Positions 33,350 to 64,000 of a DNA stretch of 64,000 nucleotides are shown here, one piece after another. Source of the DNA: Bacillota bacterium. GTDB taxonomy: Bacteria > Bacillota > Clostridia > Clostridiales > Clostridiaceae. Location: NCBI GenBank assembly GCA_021781655.1, contig JAJXWJ010000004.1, forward strand, positions 1 through 64,000, given 5' to 3'. A program made the translations under genes and the position numbers. Position 1 is the first letter of the stretch; every line of letters begins with the position of its first letter. A model generated the notes under the pieces. That model saw only the letters and a program-made list of their open reading frames with translations, ran no database searches and had not been told where the DNA came from.

Positions 33350-36043
33350 TTAATGTGCTTTATTTTTTTTCTTCATAGTGAATAAATTCATAAGATAACA
33401 TATTTCATCATCTGAAATATAAATTGCATATTTGGTATTTAATCTAGAACACTCATTTTTAATTATTCTGTATAATTCAATATTTTCATTTATATATTCT
33501 TGGCTATTTTCGTAAGGCTCAACTTTATAATCTACACATAATCTATCTATCATAACCGCCATATGGAGCGTTATCCCCACAATTACATTAGATGTTAATT
33601 TTGTTTTGATTAACTTAGTAATATTTGCAGTAAATTTCTTTATATCTGCTATTACTAATTTACCATCCACGTATTTTAGCTGTTGCTCTAAAATATCTTC
33701 CATTTTTTTATAAACATTTTCTCTATTTATTAAATCTTGTATACTTTCTATACAAGTTCCCTCAATAATATCACTCAATTTAAATTGTGGATAATCAATC
33801 TCTAATTCAAAAGGTCCTACTAAGCATATTATTTCATATTTATATGAAAGTTTTATTAGTCTTTTGTATATATTTTCTTTTCCTATAAAGTTGATTGGAA
33901 CAATTTCTAGTAACCCTCCATCAAATTTCAAACATCTCTCCAATTGAAACTTCATTGTTTTAGCGCTTCCTTCACCTGTGGTACATACCGTTATGATAGC
34001 AAGCTTCTTATTATCCTGTGCTTCGGGAATATAATCAAGCACCTCATATTCATATATATTATTTACTTCCAAAGTATCTCTATATATTTCATCTAAATTA
34101 TAACCAATTATTGCTTTTCTAGTTGCTTCAATACAATGCAAAGTACTAACTAATGGAATTGTTCTTGTGTTTAATTTAAACTCTTTCTCTACCTCTTTAC
34201 CAAATGTGACTAAAGAACCCATATCCACTAAAAATATTATGTCGGATTTAATATTATTTGTTTTAATATATTCTTTAGTTTTTTCTAGTATAACTTGAGG
34301 TTTTTCTTCAATTGGTGCATTTATTCCATATGCATGGTCCGTTCCTAAAAGTCCATTTACTGTATTAGCCATACATGTAGCTGTTCCTTCTCCATGAGCA
34401 ATAATAATTATTTTTACATTATTTTGTGAGTTTATGATATTTACGTTATTATATATTAGAAACATAGTTATAAATCCTGCCTCATCTACTGGAACTTCTC
34501 TTTCAATAGAATTCTCTATAATTTTTATTGCACTCAAAGCTATTTGAAATTCTTTTTTATACTCTTTTTTTATTTTACCTAGTCTAGGGTTCAAAATCAC
34601 TTTGTTATTCTTAATTCTATCTATAGAATTACTAATGTGAACTGCCATGCCATAATATATTTGTTTATCCAGCTTCTTTTTTAATTCTGACTCACAAAAA
34701 TTTATTACTTTTTTTACAACATTCATAATATATGGTTCTAAAATATTTTCCAAATTTGTTGAATTAGTCGGACTATGAAACTTACTTATGTAACTTTTAA
34801 AATAATCTTCAATTTCATTTTCAATCTCTTCTTCAATGACTTTAGAATCTATTCCTCGAATTTTAAGTTGCTCAGTTTTTAGTTCCAGCATTTCATATAT
34901 ATTTTCTTCTTTCTCTTCATCTGTAAAAATCATTTGACCTTCATCTTTATCAAAAATATAGTATCTACTATTTATATCTATTAACTTATTCCAAAGCTGC
35001 CTATGTTCTACTTCTTTATACAACCCATCCCTAATATAATCTTGCAAATCTAAGCTGCTAATTGTTATGTCCTGTTTTTTATTTGAAAGAAAATCAGCAT
35101 AGGCTTTAGCACAAGCAAGTTGTATATCCGATTTTAATTGTCCTATATTTCCTTCACAATCATAAGATAAAAATGCCTTTAATGAGTTTACAGATAACTT
35201 AATACTCTTCCCTAGACGGCAAGATTCTTCAAGCATAAATTGTTTTATAAGATTAAATCTTTCTTCCATTCCTCTACTTCTTAAAGATGGAATAGAAATA
35301 ACCATAGGAATTCTTCTTGTAAACGTTTTTAATAAGCTTATGTTTGGATCTTCGGTTGTTGCCGTTATTATAAGAACCTTTGCTGTCCTTTCGCTATCCG
35401 TTTCACCTAACCTTCGATATATACCTTTGTCCATAAAAGTAAAAAACATTTCTTGCCCTTCTGCCGGTAATCTATGAACTTCATCTAAAAATAAAATTCC
35501 TTCATTTGCTTTTTCTAAAAGACCTTCCTTATCAAAATCTGCACCAGTATATGCACCTTTTTTCACTCCGAATATTTGTCCGAGCAGTAGTTGTGGATTA
35601 TTTGCATAATCTGCACAATTGAATGTAATAAATGGACTATTTTCACTTTTAACCTTCATCTCTAATGCATACTTATATATTATACTTGCAAAAGTAGACT
35701 TTCCAACTCCTGTTTCACCAAGAAGTAATATATTCATTCCATTAGGTGGGTATAAAATAGCTGCTTTTGCTTGTTCTATTGCCGTATATAAGCTTGGATT
35801 AGCTTCTGAGAATTTATTAAGCATATCTACATGTATTTTACCACTTTCTTCTACAGGCAAAAATAAAGTTGGTTTCCCTTTTACTTTAACTGCTCTGCCC
35901 TCGTTTACTAGAATATTTAAATCATTGCTTACATTTCCTCTTAAAAGCCTTAATTCTTCAGCAATTTCAGATGCAGAACATCCTTTTGGGTTTGTACTTA
36001 TCATCTCTTTAAGCTTTAAAAAAACTATTTCAATTCTTTTCAT
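33350..36043 (-). CDS. LevR/CelR-type sigma-54-dependent activator with PRD and PTS-like domains
   Basis: An 897-residue enhancer-binding regulator. Residues 1-65 are an N-terminal winged helix (ASEIAEELRLLRGNVSNDLNIL). An AAA+ domain at about 85-320 has Walker A GETGVGKST, the sigma-54 contact loop GAYTGA (variant of GAFTGA) and Walker B ILFLDEVHRLP. PRD1 is at about 440-555. An EIIA-mannose-like domain is at about 560-700 (IIIAHGEGTATCMANT, with His). An EIIB-like segment carries a Cys (VCTTGEGSAKTMKFQL), and PRD2 is at about 810-895. It probably activates the adjacent PTS-GH2 operon in response to PTS phosphorylation. Confidence 0.93.
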   Translation of the reverse strand: MKRIEIVFLKLKEMISTNPKGCSASEIAEELRLLRGNVSNDLNILVNEGRAVKVKGKPTLFLPVEESGKIHVDMLNKFSEANPSLYTAIEQAKAAILYPPNGMNILLLGETGVGKSTFASIIYKYALEMKVKSENSPFITFNCADYANNPQLLLGQIFGVKKGAYTGADFDKEGLLEKANEGILFLDEVHRLPAEGQEMFFTFMDKGIYRRLGETDSERTAKVLIITATTEDPNISLLKTFTRRIPMVISIPSLRSRGMEERFNLIKQFMLEESCRLGKSIKLSVNSLKAFLSYDCEGNIGQLKSDIQLACAKAYADFLSNKKQDITISSLDLQDYIRDGLYKEVEHRQLWNKLIDINSRYYIFDKDEGQMIFTDEEKEENIYEMLELKTEQLKIRGIDSKVIEEEIENEIEDYFKSYISKFHSPTNSTNLENILEPYIMNVVKKVINFCESELKKKLDKQIYYGMAVHISNSIDRIKNNKVILNPRLGKIKKEYKKEFQIALSAIKIIENSIEREVPVDEAGFITMFLIYNNVNIINSQNNVKIIIIAHGEGTATCMANTVNGLLGTDHAYGINAPIEEKPQVILEKTKEYIKTNNIKSDIIFLVDMGSLVTFGKEVEKEFKLNTRTIPLVSTLHCIEATRKAIIGYNLDEIYRDTLEVNNIYEYEVLDYIPEAQDNKKLAIITVCTTGEGSAKTMKFQLERCLKFDGGLLEIVPINFIGKENIYKRLIKLSYKYEIICLVGPFELEIDYPQFKLSDIIEGTCIESIQDLINRENVYKKMEDILEQQLKYVDGKLVIADIKKFTANITKLIKTKLTSNVIVGITLHMAVMIDRLCVDYKVEPYENSQEYINENIELYRIIKNECSRLNTKYAIYISDDEICYLMNLFTMKKKNKAH

Positions 36044-36264: not shown

Positions 36265-36990
36265 TTATAGCAATCCTTTTATTAATCTAGTTGAAATTAA
36301 ACACTCTTCCCCATTATCCATATATGCAATTCTATTTTTTGCATCTATTTCTTTAATCTTATTTTTATTTACAATAAAAGACTTATGACATCGATAAAAT
36401 ATATCGCTATCTAATTTTTCTTCTACGTCTTTCATTTTTGCATAAAATTCAACTTGTCTATTATCTGCATGAAGAATAACCTTATGAATATTAGTTGAAG
36501 TCTCAAAATACACTATTTTGTTATATTCAACATTAATTATTTTATCCTCTGCTTTTATAATAAAATTTTTTTGAATTTCATTTCTATTTGAGTTGTATTT
36601 TTTATTTGCATTACATATACATTGATGTATTCTTTCTTTAATATTTCCAAAGTTATCTTTTATAATATAGTCCATAGCTTCTACCTTATATGTAAAAGTC
36701 AAATAACTCATTTCTGCATGAGTAGTTATAAATACAATAAAGCCTCTAGGATCATACTCTCTGATTTTTTCTGCTAATTGTATGCCGTTTATTGTTGATT
36801 TTAAATCTATATCCAAAAAATATAGACCTGTTCCTTTGTTATTTGTAATGTAATCTAAAACTTTGTTTGGGTCTTCTGTTGAAAGTGCTAGGTTCATATC
36901 AAAATTTTCTATCATTATAATATCTTCAACTAGTTTAGAAAACTTTTCTCTTTGTTTAATGTTATCTTCGCACACAAATACATTTAACAA
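36265..36990 (-). CDS. agrA: AgrA-like LytTR response regulator
   Basis: A 241-residue two-component regulator. The receiver (residues 1-125) has the acidic pocket (CEDN) and phosphorylated Asp60 in YFLDIDL. The LytTR DNA-binding domain (about 140-241) shows VYFETSTNIHKVILH, FYAKMKDVEEKL and FYRCHKSFIVNKNKI, a typical AgrA pattern. It is the last gene of agrBDCA, 26 bases after agrC. It should bind 9-bp direct repeats spaced two helical turns apart; such a pair is found upstream of agrB at 39320. Confidence 0.92.
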   Translation of the reverse strand: MLNVFVCEDNIKQREKFSKLVEDIIMIENFDMNLALSTEDPNKVLDYITNNKGTGLYFLDIDLKSTINGIQLAEKIREYDPRGFIVFITTHAEMSYLTFTYKVEAMDYIIKDNFGNIKERIHQCICNANKKYNSNRNEIQKNFIIKAEDKIINVEYNKIVYFETSTNIHKVILHADNRQVEFYAKMKDVEEKLDSDIFYRCHKSFIVNKNKIKEIDAKNRIAYMDNGEECLISTRLIKGLL

Positions 36991-37015
36991 ATTTATTCAC
37001 CCCTCTAAAACTTAA

Positions 37016-38338
37016 CTATTTATTTGATATCTCTATATTTTGAATAAAATTTTCATCTTCTATTACTGTATCTAAAGAAACATTATTATAATTGTTAATA
37101 ATTTCTTTCAAATTACTTAAGCCTATGCCTCTATTATTTCCTTTTGTAGAAAATCCTTTTTGAAACAGCTTATTTATTGGTGGTATGACTTCAGAATAAT
37201 TATTTACTACTAATATAAGTACCGAATCTTTTTTGTTTATAAATGCAATTTTAAGCTGGGGGCTTGTACATTTTAATGCAGCTTCAACTGCATTATCTAT
37301 TAATATTCCTATTACCCTACATAAATCTATTATGTACATATTAATTTTCTCTATTGGCTCTACAATATCTATGAACACATCGATGCCAAGTTCTTGTGCT
37401 CTTATTACTTTTGATGAAACGATTCCCTTTACCTCTGGTAGTTTTAAATTTTTTAAAAGCCCCAACTTAAAATTGTTAGATTCTATACTTTTACTTATAG
37501 GTAAAATGTTTTCATTAAAGTGTTCTTCTAAACCCTTCATATCTTTATTTTCTATGTATCCAATTAAAGACGAAATTATGTTTATGTAATCGTGCCTAAA
37601 AGCTCTCATATCTGCATATAAAGCTTCTAAGTTTGAAGTGTATTCTTGTAAATTTTCAAACTGAAGCTGTTTATTTCTAATTTCTAAATCTTTTGAAATA
37701 CTTTTAATTAATATATACATGATTACCATTAATAGTATAAAATATGCTGCAAAGGATACTGCATTAATTCCTGCTAGTTCGGTATCGGAAACATTATTTG
37801 CTTGTAGTATTATATTTACATAAAATATTGCAAAAGTTAATATCACACTTACTACTATTAATGTTGCTGATTTTTTATAATATTTTATGTTAGATATTAT
37901 TAATTTTTTATTTATTAATGTTCCTATTAGTTTGCTTATTGAAAAAGTAACAATTAGCATTAAAATAACATATTGTGAATATAATAAATTATTATTACTT
38001 ATATTATCACTACTTGTTTTATAGATTAAAATTAATAAATACCCAATAAGATTATCTGCTAATACTAATATAATTAATGAAAGTAATGTTATTATGATGC
38101 TTATTACTATTTTCTTATGAATCAAGAAAACAAAGACACAAAAGACTACTACTACAGGTATAAGTGCCACAAATTGACTAAGATTTAACATCAAAATTAA
38201 AATACCTAAAATTTCTGATAAAAAAATAGGTATTATGGCTTCTTTAACTTTAAATTTGTTGCAAGCTAAATTATTTATTACGATATATATAAAAATAATG
38301 GATATTAATAGTTTTAGATATTCTTCCAAAATAAACAT
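37016..38338 (-). CDS. agrC: AgrC-like peptide-sensing histidine kinase
   Basis: A 440-residue membrane kinase. Residues 1-215 hold six to seven hydrophobic helices forming the peptide sensor. The dimerisation helix contains the phosphorylated His in FRHDYINIISSLIGYIE (HxxxHis-type of the AgrC/SpoOB group). The ATPase has the N-box LIDNAVEAAL and the G-box KGNNRGIGLSNLKEI. The N-terminal region is as divergent as expected for a receptor tuned to its own peptide. Confidence 0.93.
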   Translation of the reverse strand: MFILEEYLKLLISIIFIYIVINNLACNKFKVKEAIIPIFLSEILGILILMLNLSQFVALIPVVVVFCVFVFLIHKKIVISIIITLLSLIILVLADNLIGYLLILIYKTSSDNISNNNLLYSQYVILMLIVTFSISKLIGTLINKKLIISNIKYYKKSATLIVVSVILTFAIFYVNIILQANNVSDTELAGINAVSFAAYFILLMVIMYILIKSISKDLEIRNKQLQFENLQEYTSNLEALYADMRAFRHDYINIISSLIGYIENKDMKGLEEHFNENILPISKSIESNNFKLGLLKNLKLPEVKGIVSSKVIRAQELGIDVFIDIVEPIEKINMYIIDLCRVIGILIDNAVEAALKCTSPQLKIAFINKKDSVLILVVNNYSEVIPPINKLFQKGFSTKGNNRGIGLSNLKEIINNYNNVSLDTVIEDENFIQNIEISNK

Positions 38339-38422
38339 CCTCCAATTAGAAATTAGATTTATTATATCATAACATTTTTAGCATGTATACATATTATTAC
38401 CTTAATGTAAAACAAACAATAT

Positions 38423-38602
38423 TTATTGATTTTTTTTACATTGCAGCAATTCTACTGAAATTTTAGGCTCATAAAATAATATTCCTATACATGTATTAAC
38501 TGATTTTTCACCCAAACTTATTGATGTTTCGCCTATTTTTGTAACTATCTTTTCTTCTATTGCGTTAAACAAACCTTCTTTAATTTCTTTCATATTTTTC
38601 AT
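38423..38602 (-). CDS. agrD: AgrD autoinducing peptide precursor
   Basis: A 59-residue pro-peptide. The start is ATG 38602 with AAGGGG about 11 bases upstream; an in-frame ATG at 38611 is too close to it. The N-terminal amphipathic helix (KEIKEGLFNAIEEKIVTKIG) is followed by the core NTCIGILF and the charged tail YEPKISVELLQCKKNQ. The tail aligns with DEVEVPKEL of staphylococcal AgrD, placing the cleavage after Phe. The thiolactone would then be the six-residue ring C-I-G-I-L-F. The gene overlaps the end of agrB by 23 bases. Confidence 0.88.
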   Translation of the reverse strand: MKNMKEIKEGLFNAIEEKIVTKIGETSISLGEKSVNTCIGILFYEPKISVELLQCKKNQ

Positions 38603-39218
38603 AATTATCATATCCCCTTTTTAATATTTTATAGGTTATTGGCAATATTATTATTACTGCATAAATTGCAGATAATATCATTAATGTTTTTACAATTGGA
38701 ATTGGTACTATTAATGCTAACACCATTAAAGCGATACCAGTTAATACAGCTTCTTTTTTTAGCTTTGCTCTAAGCTTTACTCCTAGTAATGGATGACATT
38801 CTGTATCTGCAGGAGCATATTTATATAAAAGTATATTTATTATTGTAAAAGCTATAAAGACTATGTAATTATTAACTTTAACAAATTGACTTATGTATGA
38901 TCCAATGTTAAACATTGCTATGCAGGTAATTGTACATACAACACTGCTTTTAGCATGAAGACCAAAAGAACATTTTCTTAAGCACCCAAATACTATTATC
39001 ATTAATATCGTTTCTTTTACTAAACCTAACACTTCAGCTACTGCCAATAATATAATGAATTTTGAAATATTAATGATTAAGATTTGAAAGCCTAATTTCA
39101 TTTTTTCAAGTTCTAGACCTTCTTTGTTTAAATATGTATTTACTCTTGATGTAAGGCATTCTGCAAATAAATCAATATAATCGACTCGGTTTTTTAATTT
39201 ATTTTCCATATCCATCAC
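38580..39218 (-). CDS. agrB: AgrB peptide-processing membrane endopeptidase
   Basis: A 212-residue cysteine endopeptidase that cleaves AgrD and closes its thiolactone. The catalytic His and Cys are in CSFGLHAKSSVVCTITC, seven residues apart as in the family. Four to six hydrophobic segments follow the cytosolic N-terminus. It is the first gene of agrBDCA, with predicted AgrA repeats about 100 bases upstream, and is translationally coupled to agrD through overlap. Confidence 0.93.
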   Translation of the reverse strand: MMDMENKLKNRVDYIDLFAECLTSRVNTYLNKEGLELEKMKLGFQILIINISKFIILLAVAEVLGLVKETILMIIVFGCLRKCSFGLHAKSSVVCTITCIAMFNIGSYISQFVKVNNYIVFIAFTIINILLYKYAPADTECHPLLGVKLRAKLKKEAVLTGIALMVLALIVPIPIVKTLMILSAIYAVIIILPITYKILKRGYDNYEKYERN

Positions 39219-39319
39219 CCATATTCAGTATATGATATTTTATGGTTATAACCGCAAATCCATATTATATTGAAACATTACAAGCATTAATGTATAGAAT
39301 AGTGATTTTATTTAAAATA

Positions 39320-39346
39320 AACGCTCAATTTTTTGTAATTAACGCT
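39320..39346 (-). promoter_or_regulatory. Predicted AgrA-type tandem operator upstream of agrBDCA
   Basis: On the minus strand TTAGCGTTAA and TGAGCGTTTA form direct repeats; the shared AGCGTT cores lie at 39341-39346 and 39320-39325, exactly 21 bases apart. LytTR regulators use such pairs on one helix face. A possible -10 (TATACA) lies about 24 bases past the second repeat. Autoregulation of agr would be expected. Confidence 0.65.
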
Positions 39347-39355
39347 AACCATCAA

Positions 39356-39401
39356 AAAAAGTTAAGAAAGGACTGCATATTCCTTCATTCTTAACTTTTT
39401 A
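39356..39401 (-). terminator. Terminator of the PKS/NRPS operon
   Basis: aaaaagttaagaa(t)gaagga pairs with tcctttcttaacttttttt around an 8-base loop on the minus strand and ends in a T run, 45 bases past the sfp-like gene and ahead of agr. It makes agr a separate transcription unit. Confidence 0.85.
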
Positions 39402-63800: not shown

Positions 63801-64000
63801 CACCTTCCACATATAAATCACATAGCCTTTGTAATACTTCTTCTTCTCTTTCAAAAGAATTAATATATTCCTTCAAGGTTTCTGCAGCTAATTTGCTTAA
63901 TCTTTTAAAATCTACTTCGCTTGCATACTTAACTATTATTTTTTTATAATTCTTTTTTAAACAATTTAGCTTTTCCATTAATTCAGTTTTGTTATTAGCA
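60895..64000 (-). CDS. Polyketide synthase module (KS)-DH-KR-ACP, 5' end outside window
   Basis: The frame stays open past the first internal ATG (63978) to the window edge, and the visible start corresponds to the linker after a KS domain, so this is a partial gene of at least 1034 residues. From Met at 63978: linker to about 90 (PIYPFKRHRCW). DH is about 105-400, with H140 in GQHKVGDKYVLPG (Asp in place of Gly) and ALDRSIN. KR is about 420-830 (GGMGALGLEMVKYL, FSSITSILGG, GQGDYTAANSY). ACP is about 905-975 (GGDS). The tail DLLNKLAQGEMTINDADKYF resembles those of the next two synthases. A KS upstream is expected but not seen. Confidence 0.9.
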   Translation of the reverse strand, partial: ANNKTELMEKLNCLKKNYKKIIVKYASEVDFKRLSKLAAETLKEYINSFEREEEVLQRLCDLYVEGAEVPWDLLYEDEVRRKLSLPIYPFKRHRCWAEENFRETRYKFSNEGKALHPLIDRLIVKAFDERIYSKTFNPKENWVLGQHKVGDKYVLPGTAYLEMIRKVYSEALDNENIEFQKVIFMSPFSLKEDENRELQIVLKQKESFSEFIITSESEGEWIVHVEGIVRKINVEALLFCDIENEVKELKAEASERKISVEIGPRWTNISKKMYKCKNNEFIAHFNVSDEYKEDLGNYYLYPPALDRSINAANTYLGNGTYLPFSYGSMKVYGPSPKEFYSYIKRRGRNDNNSETMSFDVLLFDKTGKCFVEVKDYIVKRVKENDFKANSDDNLYHNLVWNVNEIAQKNEKYATGNTIIFTDEFGVSSQLAAKIRTEGYEVIEVKLGEGYKKLNVDNYIVGSSEQDYIEILNSIKEKDIATIIHMWTFGQEPEVEELKALKKQRQYGIDSLFFLTKALINCKYNNKIHMILVSNNANKVTGIEKNINSLSAAYFSFSKVISQEYNNITCKCIDVDDEKQAKNIISEIKYGKDINKCAYRAGIRYTEQFTDLHLEASEAHNIKLKDGGVYIITGGMGALGLEMVKYLSSKNKVNLILINRSEMPHSSEWEGIIKNGKNKKLIRAMKTIMETEAKGSKVTCYSGDSASINDMKTIIKDIKEKYYAVNGVIHCAGIAGDGFIFKKSFEDFEKVLKPKIDGSFILNSVTSDENLDFFVLFSSITSILGGQGQGDYTAANSYLDSFSEYRNKKGKRTLCINWGAFKEVGMAVDYGLDESKNSLKAIETVTAINAFDAVLNSNLNRVIIGQLNYEMLINKKEELPIYFDKKLSKVMRNKELKLKKNKSDNVKTLKEEVQLKGFGEDNVFTETEIKLAGIWAQVLGLEEVNIYDSFNNMGGDSILAIRLLKKLELEYEGMIDIADVFAYSTVNAMAKHLDEMKNKDNKTEVIIKEDLEDLDDLLNKLAQGEMTINDADKYF

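Follow-up and report, generated by a model that had tools for sequence, protein, structure and literature searches.

The agrBDCA locus analysed here is a real and intact agr system of the Clostridium acetobutylicum type, and the hybrid NRPS-PKS operon next to it has a LanM-like gene, the predicted effector gene, at its far end. AgrA is predicted to activate the LanM-like gene and probably the operon too, a reading to which we assign a probability of about 0.6. The arrangement is new; its kind is known. The window, meaning the whole 64,000-bp stretch of DNA that was analysed, comprises bases 1-64000 of contig C97 (82,514 bp) from a clostridial genome whose assembly is fragmented (3.7 Mb, 97.7% complete).

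The agr locus and the neighbouring operon

The first-pass annotation had placed an intact agrBDCA on one strand right after the terminator of a biosynthetic operon, and this was confirmed, with all four genes on the minus strand at 39218-36265. The features of the region were as follows.

38580-39218, minus strand: agrB, peptide-processing membrane endopeptidase (PF04647, E 1e-31)
38423-38602, minus strand: agrD, signal peptide precursor (TIGR04223, 20.3 bits against a cut-off of 19)
37016-38338, minus strand: agrC, sensor histidine kinase (HATPase_c_5; S. aureus AgrC kinase module 6e52, E 3e-61)
36265-36990, minus strand: agrA, LytTR response regulator (Response_reg and LytTR; AgrA structures 4xqj/3bs1, E 4e-23)
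38361-38389, minus strand: promoter-like site for agrCA, TATACA-17-TATAAT with TG (consensus scan, total site count at chance level)
39354-39396, minus strand: rho-independent terminator between operon and agr (hairpin and T7, -11 kcal/mol)
39446-64000, minus strand: operon part in the window, its 3' two thirds (PPTase, KS-T-C-A-T-C, two ABC exporters, thioesterase, three KS-DH-KR-ACP modules)
beyond the window up to contig 77256, minus strand: remaining operon part (discrete AT, NRPS A-T-C-A-T, ABC-2 exporter, O-methyltransferase)

Each of agrB, agrD, agrC and agrA carried the domain of its respective family, by which an agr system is recognized. Solved S. aureus proteins were matched by the kinase part of AgrC and the LytTR part of AgrA; the strict staphylococcal equivalog cut-offs of NCBIfam were not reached by the agr proteins here. 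The AgrB sequence has a His and a Cys 7 residues apart in LHAKSSVVC, as in AgrB enzymes, which we take to be the catalytic pair. The AgrD spacing, C-x5-YEP, was the same as in C. acetobutylicum-type AgrDs, and a 6-residue ring (CIGILF, before YEPK) is predicted, its size being read from the alignment. The promoter-like site ahead of agrCA suggests that agrBD and agrCA may be carried on separate transcripts; the sigma-70 promoter scan returned site counts no higher than chance. The terminator hairpin lies 50 bp past the phosphopantetheinyl transferase gene, and its fold (~39396-39354) had a z of -2.6 that was equalled by 2 of 200 shuffles in RNA folding.

The genome holds one AgrB-like gene besides agrB of C97 (contig C139:9249-9812, locus L006); it has a small AgrD-like frame with it and is followed by an unrelated PAS-type histidine kinase, not AgrC/AgrA. 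Directly 3' of agrA, at window positions 33350-36043, lies a sigma-54-type activator of the LevR/DagR kind, apparently a regulator of the genes after it and unrelated to agr.

The operon occupies 38 kb of the minus strand, from the O-methyltransferase start at 77256 down to 39446. It had been described as a polyketide operon with a promoter outside the window. The latter statement was correct, since the first gene begins at contig 77256; a biosynthetic operon is indeed present, and it is a hybrid NRPS-PKS rather than a pure PKS operon. From 5' to 3' the genes encode the O-methyltransferase, the ABC-2 exporter, the NRPS (A-T-C-A-T), a discrete malonyl-type acyltransferase and the three KS-DH-KR-ACP modules, followed by the thioesterase, the two ABC exporters, the KS-T-C-A-T-C protein and, last, the PPTase. 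The widest gaps within the operon were 163 bp (3' of the O-methyltransferase gene) and 112 bp (5' of the NRPS), so internal promoters are possible.

The gap that precedes the first NRPS gene (C97:72398-72509; L003:12398-12509) holds a long perfect inverted repeat (ATAAAATGTAAGAGAT/ATCTCTTACATTTTAT), which might act in attenuation or antitermination. A search for NusG/LoaP was empty; that this genome (G000), rated 97.7% complete, gave no NusG match probably reflects sequence missing from the assembly or a hit missed by the search.

AgrA-type boxes and the LanM-like gene

The agrB promoters of related loci carry a pair of direct half-sites with a period of 21 bp, approximately CGnTTATTACAAAAAAT-nnnn-CGnTTATTA. 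Direct repeats of this AgrA type, as autoregulation would call for, are conserved before agrB both in C97 and in the related loci, and the C97 agrB box matched 22 of 24 consensus positions, compared with a shuffled maximum of 18. Two boxes stood out on the contig, the second of them facing a LanM-like gene.

39313-39346, minus strand: predicted AgrA-type box in front of agrB (AGCGTTAATTACAAAAAATTGAGCGTTTATTTTA), top site of the 82.5-kb contig with a model from other genomes only
contig 77450-77483, plus strand: predicted AgrA-type box facing the LanM-like gene, second-best site of the contig
contig 77548-79173, plus strand: LanM-like gene, 541 aa, divergent from the O-methyltransferase gene

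A weight matrix was built from seven other genomes and both strands of the contig were scanned with variable spacing allowed; no C97 site was used in training, but the consensus by which the training sites were located had been set by eye with the C97 agrB box in view. The agrB promoter came out on top with 32 bits, and the next-best score, 19 bits, fell in the LanM/operon intergenic region; ranks 3 and 4 were much weaker and also within that region. When the LanM promoters of relatives were added to the matrix, the agrB box scored 30.4, the LanM/operon region 21.8 and the next-best site 13.9. The LanM/operon box was second in all 48 leave-one-out/pseudocount runs, and its score was reached by none of 20 million simulated positions and by none of ~1.05 million real positions in 27 family loci. 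In Pseudobacteroides cellulosolvens and Ruminiclostridium hungatei, neither of which had contributed to the model applied to them, the two best sites lay in the agrB promoter and in the gap between agrA and LanM. The LanM promoters have in common a -10 element with TG, which is outside the model and lies 27-28 nt past the box: 28 nt in the relatives, and in C97, as TGG-TATATT (TGn-TATATT), 27 nt after the box at 77450-77483.

Genome-wide, the consensus of the two C97 sites with at most 3 mismatches was found at 2 places in 3.7 Mb and at 0 in a reversed control, the pattern being derived from those same sites. The relaxed LanM-type consensus with 3 mismatches was at chance level across the genome (58 matches against 64 in the reversed control). 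Besides agrB, the exact AGCGTT pair occurred at one site by a recombinase fragment (contig C85); this candidate was rejected, with no high-scoring box at that locus.

It had been proposed to look for the AGCGTT pair before the first operon gene, past position 64000. The exact pair was absent there and a diverged box was present, the one at 77450-77483, which lies ~200 bp from the first codon of the operon and points on the plus strand to the LanM-like gene. The operon strand has only a weaker candidate (77364-77331, minus strand). It ranked 4-19 in the contig, 16 of 3000 local shuffles on that strand scored as high, and its -10 spacing was off.

The LanM-like gene is not immediately downstream of agrA; it is 38 kb away, and the intergenic region that separates it from the O-methyltransferase gene measures 291 bp (77257-77547). 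In the tree its product fell in the CA_C0082 clade with 100/100 support against full-length LanMs, on a long branch of its own, and it shared 25-36% identity with other clade members. A full-length class II lanthipeptide synthetase (LanM) with a zinc-binding cyclase was ruled out by the length of 541 aa, a TIGR03897 score of 123 bits (cut-off 304) and the absence of the zinc motifs CHG and WCxG. No DNA-binding part was found in the protein by Pfam or NCBIfam. In C. acetobutylicum, Humphreys et al. found that CA_C0082 adjoins agrA and showed with a reporter assay that its transcription depends on Agr (PMC10301443). CA_C0082 executes the Agr response (granulose) though its catalytic residues are lost, and its constitutive expression restores the agr phenotype without AgrA, indicating that it acts downstream of Agr (PMC10301443).

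The closest LanM-like relative (genome G180) is also separate from agr, on an 89.5-kb contig with a ParA-like gene, and no AgrA-type box lies upstream of it. On a plasmid-like contig of G180, a high-scoring AgrA-type box (22 bits) was found away from agrB at C2:11125 (L063:126), possibly marking a further Agr target in that species. The search for an orthologous operon gave at most partial NRPS-AT-PKS similarity (G050, G126, G109), and around those genes the top box scores were below that of the LanM/operon site of C97.

Readings of the agr-operon link

In the mechanism that we propose, a peptide with a six-residue ring would activate AgrC at high density, and phosphorylated AgrA would bind two direct half-sites 21 bp apart. 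The box ahead of agrBD would provide positive feedback. The second box, in the 291-bp region from which the LanM-like gene and the NRPS-PKS operon diverge, would let AgrA switch on the LanM-like gene and probably the operon, either directly from the shared region or via the LanM-like protein. Gene identities, box conservation and promoter geometry are established by the sequence analysis; that AgrA binds and activates, and most of all that the operon responds, is what we infer from them.

Control of agrBD and the LanM-like gene by AgrA is well supported by the sequence evidence. The operon, in turn, is likely Agr-responsive, directly or via the LanM-like protein, because it shares the control region and its own strand carries a weak site (77364-77331). 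The first-pass annotation had suggested density-controlled production and had called the link between agr and the operon positional only. With a box in the LanM/operon control region, the positional link becomes a predicted regulatory one. Density control of the LanM-like gene has good support from sequence and precedent, and that of the operon is plausible through the shared region.

Direct control of the operon by agr, with one two-way promoter driving both it and the LanM-like effector, would make signal, effector and operon one density-controlled unit. We hold this tentatively, at somewhat under even odds. Against the preferred reading stand the direction of the strong box, towards the LanM-like gene, and the low rank of the operon-facing candidate; in addition, the nearest LanM-like relative lacks the box, and no orthologous operon was found for promoter comparison. 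Agr might instead control agrBD and the LanM-like gene only, governing storage polymer and spores as in C. acetobutylicum, with the operon regulated otherwise. The direction of the strong box, the weakness of the operon-facing site and the action of the C. acetobutylicum effector on granulose (PMC10301443) all agree with such a division; however, the box sits in the operon's own control region and the operon is bracketed on both sides by agr and its effector gene, and we regard this alternative as unlikely.

One sub-case of the preferred reading is indirect: the LanM-like protein, an inactive lanthipeptide-synthetase relative acting as a regulator, would switch the operon. The position of CA_C0082 downstream of Agr, known from the rescue without AgrA (PMC10301443), and the divergence of the LanM-like gene from the operon point this way, but the lack of a DNA-binding part in Pfam and NCBIfam searches counts against it. 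Taken alone, we consider it rather improbable. It is also conceivable that agr and the operon are neighbours by accident, without common regulation, and that the AT-rich intergenic DNA resembles the box by chance. Chance-level relaxed consensus searches genome-wide and the absence of PKS/NRPS genes within ~10 kb in all 20 nearest agr loci would fit an accident. However, the LanM/operon box was second in every variant of a model validated on two held-out genomes, and the -10 spacing, not part of that model, was conserved; we consider an accident very improbable.

Polyketide and peptide operons of anaerobic clostridia are often silent, and how the cells turn them on is poorly understood. Because the box lies in a control region shared with an agr-effector-type gene, density control of the product becomes a specific, testable prediction, and if it is true, operons of this kind could be activated by adding a short synthetic peptide. 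With the conserved box, Agr targets could then be catalogued in solvent-producing relatives among the clostridia, and the LanM-like link would offer a second setting for learning the role of an enzyme-dead effector.

Comparison with known systems

A first genome search with AgrB alone as the query returned no relatives. Among the 20 closest agr loci subsequently compared, none had KS or NRPS genes within ~10 kb, and several adjoined peptide exporters or LanM genes, showing that agr next to ribosomal-peptide genes is recurrent. Bracketing of an NRPS-PKS operon by agr and its effector was seen only at C97 among these loci, and no published description of such a link was found in a literature search of incomplete coverage.

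The agr repeats of Staphylococcus aureus are spaced 21-22 bp. S. aureus shares with C97 the four-gene layout, the LytTR domain of AgrA and two direct repeats upstream of the agr promoters (PMC4227749). In contrast, no RNAIII-like gene was identified at C97, the half-site sequence differs, and the predicted ring has six residues rather than the five of S. aureus. Clostrienose of C. acetobutylicum is likewise a clostridial polyketide tied to differentiation, but a separate one, and the available part of its description reports no agr link (PMC5686105).

R. hungatei and P. cellulosolvens have agrBDCA and the same boxes as C97; unlike C97, their LanM-like gene comes next after agr, and no PKS/NRPS was present in the neighbourhood examined. 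Locus L066 we take to be C. acetobutylicum ATCC 824; there the LanM-like start was 88 bp past agrA, equal to the published agrA-CA_C0082 gap. The agrBDCA-CA_C0082 system of C. acetobutylicum (PMC10301443) resembles that of C97 in its agrBD and agrCA organization, its C-x5-YEP AgrD, an AgrA 63% identical, a LanM-like protein of the same clade and the same box before both agrB and the LanM-like gene. The difference is one of place: in C. acetobutylicum the LanM-like gene comes right after agrA, whereas in C97 it lies 38 kb off on the other strand, divergent from the NRPS-PKS operon.
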